This document shows positions 38,407 to 41,400 of a DNA stretch of 64,000 nt, in pieces. Each line of letters starts with the position of its first letter. Position 1 is the stretch's first letter. Source of the DNA: Caenorhabditis elegans (Eukaryota > Nematoda > Chromadorea > Rhabditida > Rhabditidae). Under the pieces are notes generated by a model. The model was not told where the DNA came from. It saw only the letters and a program-made list of their open reading frames with translations, and searched no databases. Location: contig NC_003280.10 of the NCBI RefSeq assembly GCF_000002985.6, positions 12,768,501-12,832,500 of the forward strand, given 5' to 3'. A program made the translations under genes and the position numbers.

Positions 38407-41400
38407 ATGAACAAGCTGCACAAGGGATGGTTCACCGAGTTCTCGCCGGATGACCTGGAAAAGATGAACGGAGCCTCCGACGAGGAGCCAACGAAGGTGC
38501 TCAAATCCGACGGACAAGAGATGGGCGGCGCGTGGCCGGGACAGGCGTTCTCGTTGCAGGTGAAGAAAGTGCTTTTCCACGAGAAGAGCAAGTATCAGGA
38601 TGTGCTGGTTTTTGAGAGGTATTAAATGTGGTGTAGTCGAATTTTTTATTGCTCTATTAGACACGAAATTGTCTGAAAACACCGAATTTCATAAAGAAAC
38701 TTCTTGAAATTTTCTCAAAAAAAAGTTATGATAGCTCAAAAAATGGCCTAAAATTAGATAAAATTTTTAATTTAACTTGTCAGCGCTGTCAGCTGGAAAC
38801 AAATTTTTTTTTGAAATCACCGTCAAATTTTAGGTATACAAGTCATTTATCTTGCATTTTCAACAAGATTTTGGTATTTTAAAGTTGATAAACGGCGCGA
38901 TTTTTTAATTTTTTAAACCAAATTTTGCCGTCCATCGACTTTAAGACACCTAAATCGAGTTGAAAACGCGAGATAATTACATTGTATACTTAAAATTAGA
39001 CGGTGATTTCAAAAAAATTAGTTTCCAGCTGACAGCGCTGACAAGTCAAATTTCAAGTTTTAACTAATTTTAGGCCATTTTTTGAGCCGTCATAACTTTT
39101 TTTTGGGAAGTTTTCAAGAAGTTTCATTATGAAATTCGGTGTTTTCAGACAATTTTGAGAATAATGAAGCTATTTTAAAAAAATCCAGCACACCGCCTTA
39201 GAATTTTCAAAATTAATTACGGAATTCAAATTTTTTTCAGCACAACCTATGGAAATGTTCTAGTTCTAGACGGAATTGTTCAGGCAACTGAACGGGATGA
39301 GTTCTCCTACCAGGAAATGCTGGCCCATCTCCCAATGTTTGCCCATCCGGACCCGAAACGTGTAAGCTCGCTAGAAATGACATTTCTGGCTTGGAAAACT
39401 CCCTTTTTCGAGAAATTTTGATTTAAAAATCGCTAAAACCTCAAGATTTTCACTGAAATCGCCGCATTTCAGGTACTTATCATTGGTGGAGGAGATGGAG
39501 GTATTTTGAGAGAGGTCTTGAAGCACGAGTCCGTCGAGAAGGTCACAATGTGTGAAATAGACGAAATGGTGATCGATGTCGCGAAAAAGTATGATTTTTA
39601 AAAACACGGGGTTCTGGCCTTCCTCATTGAATTTTTCGCGCTCCATTGACAATCGCCTGCCGGACAACGCGTGGGAAAGTCGTGTACTTCACACGGACAA
39701 ATACATTCATTTTTACAACTAAAATCGAGCCGCGACGCGACACGCAACGCGCCGTAAATCTACCCCAGATATGGCCGAGCAAAAATGCCTGGTTCGGCCT
39801 AAACTCTTCCATTTCAATTTATGAGGGAAGCCAGAAATCCGTGTTTTTCAACAAAAATTGGTTGAATTAACTTAATTCTAAAAAAAAATTTTAAATCTTT
39901 TAAAGGTTCCTGCCTGGCATGTCGTGCGGTTTCTCACACCCGAAACTCGACTTATTCTGCGGAGATGGCTTCGAATTTTTGAAAAATCACAAGAACGAGT
40001 TCGACGTAATTATCACGGACAGTTCCGATCCAGTTGGGCCGGCTGAATCGCTTTTCGGGCAAAGTTATTACGAGTTGCTGAGAGATGCGTTGAAGGAGGA
40101 TGGAATTTTGTCATCGCAAGGTGGGAAATAACAAAAAAATCACTTAAAAATGAAGAAAATCGATAAAAAACTTAAGAAAACTTGAAGAAAACTATTTTAA
40201 ATTAAAGAAGAGCAAACAAAAGTCAATAAGTTACAGCAAGTCATTAAAGGCGCATAGGCGGAAATATGCCAAGGGTCTCGCCGCGAAAATCAATTTATGG
40301 AGTTTTAACTTGATTTTGATTAAATTTTGAAGGTTTTAGCAAAGAAAAATATGTTTTGGGATTAGTTTAATAAATTACACTAAAAAATAAATTTGGAAAC
40401 CAAGAAAAAAACAGTGGAAACTAAAAAAAATTAAAAATTATTGTTACTGTAGGCTATTAAAGGATCATAGGCGGCAATATGCAGCGGGTCTCGTCACGAA
40501 AACTAATTTATGGAGTTTTCAGCTTAATTTTCATATAATTTTGAAGTTTTTTAAAACAGAAAAATTCAATTTTAGGAGATTATGCTGAATTACATTTTGA
40601 AACCAAGAAAATCAGTGTAACGAAAAAAAGAAACTGGTTACTGTAAGACTTTAAAGGCGCATATGCTGAATTCGAAGGAATAAAATTGATTTTGAATTGT
40701 TTTTTTCGATTGAAAAACTTGAAAAAAAAATCACGTGACTAAATTTATTTCTTTACTCTAAAGAAATCCTTCTAGGCGAATGCCCATGGCTAGACATGAA
40801 GCTCATCTCTACCGTAATCCATTCGGCTCGTGACCTATTTCCCGTGGCAAAGTACGCGGTTGGCAGCGTGCCAACCTACACGTCAGGCCTGATGGGCTAT
40901 ATTTTATGCGCAAAGGATAAGGTGAACACTGGTGTGGTGTGATTTTTACTGTGTTGATTAACCTGATGAATGAAAATGCGCTCCATTGCACAATAACATT
41001 TCTGTGGTGATATGGTGTGATTAATATATATGAGTGACGTAACCACTTAAAAATAAATTCCCGCGGTTCCTGGAGGTCAAACGACTATTTCTAACCTGCA
41101 AACGCGCTCCATCGAACTCTCATGGTACAACCAACCCCTCTAATTGTAGTGCACCTCTAAAACTGTGTTAGTGAGTGATTTTCAGGAGAATCTGTGTGGC
41201 TTCACCTCCCACTAATCGCTCATCTCGTCGCCTTCAATCGAAAAATTTTCCCGGCCGTCACCTACGCCCAGTCGATCGTCTCTACCTACCCGTCTGGAAG
41301 CATGGGATACCTGATTTGTGCAAAAAATGCTGTGAGGAGAAGAAAACAACGAGAAAAAAAGAGAAAAATCACAATCTGATCGCGATCACCCCAAAACATT

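Follow-up and report, generated by a model that had tools for sequence, protein, structure and literature searches.

The spermidine synthase gene spds-1 of Caenorhabditis elegans carries two adjacent versions of its fifth coding exon, here called 5a and 5b, which probably descend from an old tandem duplication, are used one at a time and tune the enzyme when swapped. It is almost certain from the sequence comparisons set out below that the exon pair is real and that both copies are coding, and very likely that both are used in the worm, as indicated for 5b by the protein structure 2b2c and deduced for 5a from its sequence. The gene, located in the 64,000-nucleotide stretch of DNA that was analysed (the window), was identified by its 5b-form product, which matches PDB entry 2b2c, called spermidine synthase there, at 314 of 314 residues. 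We take this entry to be the worm enzyme described by Dufe et al. 2005, a reference cited in PMC3853187, and the gene is presumably Y46G5A.19. Moreover, three primer pairs for C. elegans spds-1, published in two papers, have exact matches in it. Its parts are the following, in positions of the window:

38407..38618, forward strand: coding exon 1, starting at the ATG (translation, identity to 2b2c)
39241..39361, forward strand: coding exon 2 (translation, identity to 2b2c)
39473..39588, forward strand: coding exon 3 (translation, identity to 2b2c)
39906..40120, forward strand: coding exon 4, ending after codon base 1 (translation, identity to 2b2c)
40776..40921, forward strand: alternative exon 5a, 146 nt, residues 222-270, GECPWLDMK...CAKDK (22 of 49 amino acids as in 5b; PF01564 match)
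40922..41185, forward strand: intron between 5a and 5b, 264 nt
41186..41331, forward strand: alternative exon 5b, 146 nt, GESVWLHLP...CAKNA, the form in 2b2c (translation, identity to 2b2c)
42161..42295, forward strand: coding exon 6, including the stop codon (translation, identity to 2b2c)

Both alternative exons have an AG acceptor and a GT donor of their own, and their phases are equal, each being entered after the first base of a codon and left between two codons. Exons 1-4 joined to 5a and 6, or to 5b and 6, encode 314 amino acids in either case with no inner stop. Inclusion of 5a and 5b together shifts the frame and leads to a stop after 9 residues inside 5b, and with neither of them the frame stops 2 residues into exon 6. 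Adjacent, homologous and internal, of the same length and phases, and unproductive when jointly included or skipped, the two exons have the make-up of a mutually exclusive pair. The full match with 2b2c backs every splice junction of the 5b form as well as the form itself, and expression of 5b is strongly supported since the crystallised protein is the 5b form throughout, whereas the 5a isoform differs from it at 27 of the 49 residues of the segment.

The protein segments encoded by 5a and 5b share 22 of 49 residues, a number reached by none of 200,000 residue shuffles (maximum 14), and tblastn of each segment on the other within the window gave E values of 3.5e-11 and 8.2e-12. A third copy of the exon was absent from the window at E below 0.03 (tblastn) and, in a search with the 5b isoform in which 7 candidates were scored, from the genome (100,286,401 bases in 7 contigs) at E 1e-3. 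Third codon positions are alike in only 15 of 49 cases, which is near saturation, and dN between the copies is 0.51 with no finite dS (NG86). In neutral simulations in which both copies evolved freely until third positions differed as much as observed, 5.5 residues were identical on average and 19 at most, so that 0 of 3000 runs reached 22/49, and both copies stayed free of stops in 3.6% of the runs; with one copy fixed and the other free, the maximum of 3000 runs was also 19/49. The simulations and the saturated third positions therefore argue for protein-level constraint on both copies and, judged in this way, 5a is no relic but a coding exon of long standing on which selection acts. Altogether, the preliminary description was right in proposing two adjacent homologous 146-nt coding exons with splice sites of their own and identical phases, whose joint inclusion breaks the frame, as well as in locating the encoded segment beside the active site.

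The question of which copy is the more typical has two answers. The 5a form scores higher with the speE equivalog model TIGR00417 (366.1 against 361.9 bits, both above the cut-off of 249.55) and with Pfam PF01564, both for the whole protein (252.2 against 244.8 bits, again above the cut-off) and for the segment alone (33.3 against 25.9 bits). Of the 27 further PDB sequences with a match, 15 give the higher score to 5b and 12 to 5a. The former include 13 of the 13 spermidine synthase sequences from human, K. lactis, Arabidopsis, Plasmodium and Trypanosoma (396.1 against 391.6 with human, 375.0 against 358.5 with K. lactis), and the latter the enzymes of T. maritima, B. subtilis and E. coli. In this regard, it is very improbable that 5a is a decaying or unused copy: such a copy would suit the lowest acceptor count in the gene, the longer branch of 5a (1.5 against 0.71) in an otherwise unresolved tree, the crystallised form being 5b and the greater closeness of 5b to eukaryotic enzymes, but 5a is stop-free, has intact splice sites, exceeds 5b in Pfam and speE scores, and retains a similarity to 5b that no neutral run attained. 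The simulation thus disfavours the decayed-copy reading. The segment tree mentioned here was built from 11 rows, including 5 of 36 bacterial relatives, and leaves 6 of its 8 inner branches open.

The swapped segment also seems to have diverged more than the rest of the protein. Human and K. lactis enzymes are 59% identical both inside and outside the segment; identity between worm and human is 64% outside it and falls inside to 45% for 5a and 47% for 5b. Nominal Fisher P values for this extra divergence were 0.015 (5a) and 0.034 (5b) against human, and 0.0001 (5a) and 0.024 (5b) against K. lactis. On these comparisons both copies seem to have moved away, in keeping with a division of labour since the duplication; alternatively, a weaker or relaxed constraint on 5a could explain its longer branch and poorer eukaryotic fit.

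The swapped segment corresponds to human residues 207-255 (49 amino acids). Two residues lining the putrescine pocket of the human and plant enzymes (PMC12812037, PMC3725402, PMC6514230), Glu208 and Tyr241 in human numbering, are retained by both exons. Ile246, listed among the putrescine contacts (PMC10146546), is replaced by Met in 5a and 5b alike. Worm D119, D188, Y94, E223 and Y256, that is, the active-site Asp pair, a Glu and two Tyr whose roles are described in PMC12812037, PMC10146546, PMC3725402 and PMC6514230, are invariant with human and K. lactis. Differences between the copies become apparent when they are set beside 38 rows comprising 36 bacterial relatives, human and K. lactis. 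Pro239 (human number) is proline in 38/38 of them and in 5a, and serine in 5b. His213 (human number) is histidine in all 16 rows that carry a Q-G/A-E motif and in 5b, and aspartate in 5a. Position 242 is Thr in 5a, as in 4/38 rows, and Pro in 5b, as in 12/38. Both the proline and the histidine are present, by eye, in the Arabidopsis and Plasmodium rows. It had been stated initially that 5a reads PTYTSG, which is correct, and that 5b keeps the canonical PTYPSG, which is not: 5b reads STYPSG, having lost the proline found in every one of the 38 relatives, and the PDB enzyme 2b2c is the form without it. As to which copy is the deviant one, the picture is mixed: 5b fits all 13 eukaryotic enzymes better, 5a is ahead on Pfam and speE, and in each of the two a residue that is invariant elsewhere has changed.

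The remaining 22 rows lack the Q-G/A-E motif, and 21 of them constitute one divergent group with Gln in place of His213, L047 standing alone. This group (L027-L046 and L049, from Acetobacteraceae and other Rhodospirillales) consists of spermidine-synthase-like proteins that keep the PTY motif, lack the Q-G/A-E motif carrying the pocket Glu and may have another activity.

A change of substrate would be one conceivable outcome of such a swap, with isoforms taking different amines, for instance putrescine versus cadaverine, agmatine or spermidine. We regard it as unlikely. Glu208, Tyr241 and Ile246 do fall inside the swapped segment, a PF01564 search of the genome (6 candidates scored) showed no second aminopropyltransferase, the coq-2 isoforms offer a precedent by choosing different aromatic substrates, and 5a scores above 5b, by small margins, against thermospermine synthase 6bq2 and spermine synthase 3c6k. 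However, the named substrate-contact positions 208, 241 and 246 are identical in both exons, the shared Met for Ile246 included, which departs from the pattern of coq-2; Trp28, said to limit acceptor length (PMC12812037), aligns in exon 1, common to both isoforms; and spermine was undetected in the worm in one study (PMC6780408). The earlier suggestion of a difference in specificity or stability is thus kept in a modified form: a change of acceptor is possible but not favoured, given the unchanged pocket residues and the position of Trp28, and a difference in kinetics, regulation or stability agrees better with the data.

Our preferred reading is that one gene probably provides two differently tuned enzymes, with both exons apparently kept by selection. 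The swap would replace a helix and the strand bearing the putrescine-pocket Tyr, with the pocket Glu and Tyr staying in place, and it would not act as an off-switch: the properties tuned could be closure of the gate, the strength with which decarboxylated AdoMet is bound, MTA inhibition or the stability of the protein. The idea that the isoforms differ mainly through kinetic or regulatory tuning has, in our estimation, slightly less than an even chance of being correct. On closure of the gate region in the Arabidopsis enzyme, the counterpart of Glu208 moves with helix alpha-8 into the site, and this shift probably has an effect on the tryptophan located at the floor of the pocket (PMC6514230). 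From the position of this Glu, helix alpha-8 is predicted to lie within the swapped segment of the worm enzyme. We therefore regard tuning of the induced fit and of the affinity for donor or product as more likely than a new acceptor. The worm enzyme studied by Dufe et al. reportedly has a low affinity for decarboxylated AdoMet and is weakly inhibited by MTA; if so, these traits may belong to the 5b form. In a bolder version of the idea, 5b without the proline and 5a without the histidine would be oppositely specialised, for example as a low-affinity, weakly product-inhibited enzyme and a high-affinity one, and splicing would, according to tissue or stress, set the output of spermidine and with it autophagy and the hypusination of eIF5A. 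We consider this rather unlikely, and it receives a lower weight because it is 5b, not 5a, that fits the 13 eukaryotic enzymes better. It is also somewhat unlikely that catalysis is equal in both isoforms and that the swap mainly alters stability, partner binding or location through a new helix surface; in its favour, none of the 27 differences falls on one of the three named pocket positions, but each copy changes an otherwise invariant residue that is near in sequence to the pocket Tyr (5b) or the pocket Glu (5a).

Concerning the choice between the exons, 5a would be spliced in within other cells, stages or conditions than 5b, through regulators acting on unequal sites, namely a weak 5a acceptor and a slightly weak 5b donor. 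By a simple consensus count, the 5a acceptor (CTTCTAG) is the lowest of the six acceptors of the gene, with 4/7 matches and the next one at 5, and the 5b acceptor (TTTTCAG) is a full match; the 5b donor (CT|GTGAGG) is the lowest of six, at 4/8, only one match below the 5 of the others. A scan of nine regulator motifs across six introns gave none that was convincing. UGCAUG and UUGUUG are absent from introns 4, 5a and 5b. Two GGTGTG elements located 9-19 nt past the 5a donor are not significant and represent a weak lead for a GU-binding splicing regulator. Neither GTGTG (P 0.117), the single CTAAC (P 0.337) nor TGTGTTG-like motifs (P 0.243) are significant between 5a and 5b, and intron 5b holds GTGTG with P 0.010 and one TGTGTG with P 0.077.

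Transcripts including both exons would, given their early stop, be subject to nonsense-mediated decay. A further proposal is a feedback switch, by which regulated double inclusion (or skipping) would set the amount of enzyme by polyamine level. Early stops do follow from both double inclusion and double skipping, and such control could add to isoform choice; we find it quite improbable as the explanation of the pair, since it leaves the spermidine synthase sequence of 5a unexplained. Moreover, a survey of worm NMD mutants describes only frame-preserving mutually exclusive events, with NMD-sensitive non-triplet ones in human and not in worm (PMC13247117), although triplicity was judged there on the length difference between exons, which is zero for 5a and 5b.

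As possible partners for RNA pairing between introns, there are 15 inverted repeats, mostly A/T-rich, plus one dispersed palindromic repeat. The inverted repeat at 41563-41743, in the intron after 5b, has 54-nt arms that are 72% complementary. It is a dispersed repeat for which the genome gave, with 40 of 558 candidates scored, at least 71 matches counting itself, and is probably the remnant of a mobile element. Short related TTAAAGGCGCA-like stretches occur before 5a at 40241-40254 and about 40640-40669 (by eye) and, inverted, after 5b at 41563-41576, and could pair across the two exons. Downstream of the gene, open frames at 42451-42798 and 43126-43296 encode Ser and Ser/Asp runs and are perhaps parts of a small low-complexity gene.

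In the genome, one other locus, C4:6637158-6637717, lies above the cut-off of Pfam Spermine_synth (PF01564) among the 6 candidates scored. This locus (L011, L012) was set aside as a second spermidine or spermine synthase and is not evidently an aminopropyltransferase, a fragment of it matching methyltransferase-like protein 13 in the PDB with E 2.8e-07. Viral contigs gave no relatives.

A literature search for mutually exclusive exons of spermidine synthase in C. elegans found none, and an earlier listing, for instance in the catalogue of Kuroyanagi 2014 or in WormBase, is possible; unless already catalogued, the pair adds to the known class of such exons in the worm. Kassiopeia predicted them in 138 worm genes (PMC3923563), and fewer than 100 such events are described as identified in the C. 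elegans genome (PMC7434440). In the nematode Litoditis marina, differential usage of spds-1 transcripts has been described under both acid conditions, with no exons named in the passages concerned (PMC13405938).

In C. elegans, spermidine synthesis has been tied to lifespan extension by fasting (PMC11392816) and to survival of desiccation (PMC3853187), and the mRNA of spds-1 is reported as unchanged on desiccation (PMC3853187) and B12 deficiency (PMC6780408), and lower on fasting (PMC11392816). Exons 1-4 contain the fragment used for RNAi (38407-40120) and the qPCR primers in PMC11392816, and likewise the qPCR primers in PMC6780408; these reagents are therefore blind to the isoform. If the isoforms differ, control by isoform choice would be directly testable in a model animal. 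The worm structure available in the PDB represents the 5b form.

Swaps of this type have known effects in other systems, as in mammalian PKM, where the choice between M1 and M2 makes a regulatory difference. Like spds-1, PKM swaps a segment of a housekeeping enzyme through mutually exclusive exons, in another enzyme and another lineage (PMC5620227). Within the worm, the exon 4 and exon 7 clusters of unc-32 and exon 5 of egl-15 are also mutually exclusive and are chosen by RNA-binding proteins (PMC3585155), but they belong to other kinds of protein, and UGCAUG and UUGUUG, which are parts of their sites, are absent around 5a and 5b. The closest parallel is found in exons 6a and 6e of C. elegans coq-2 (PMC7434440), also a metabolic enzyme with equal non-triplet exons (134 nt in coq-2, 146 in spds-1) used one at a time to remodel the core, which provides a direct worm precedent for such a swap in a metabolic enzyme. 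In coq-2, however, two residues near the substrate switch and the product is ubiquinone or rhodoquinone (PMC7434440), whereas the named pocket residues of spds-1 are unchanged, and spds-1 resembles coq-2 only at the level of the exon swap.
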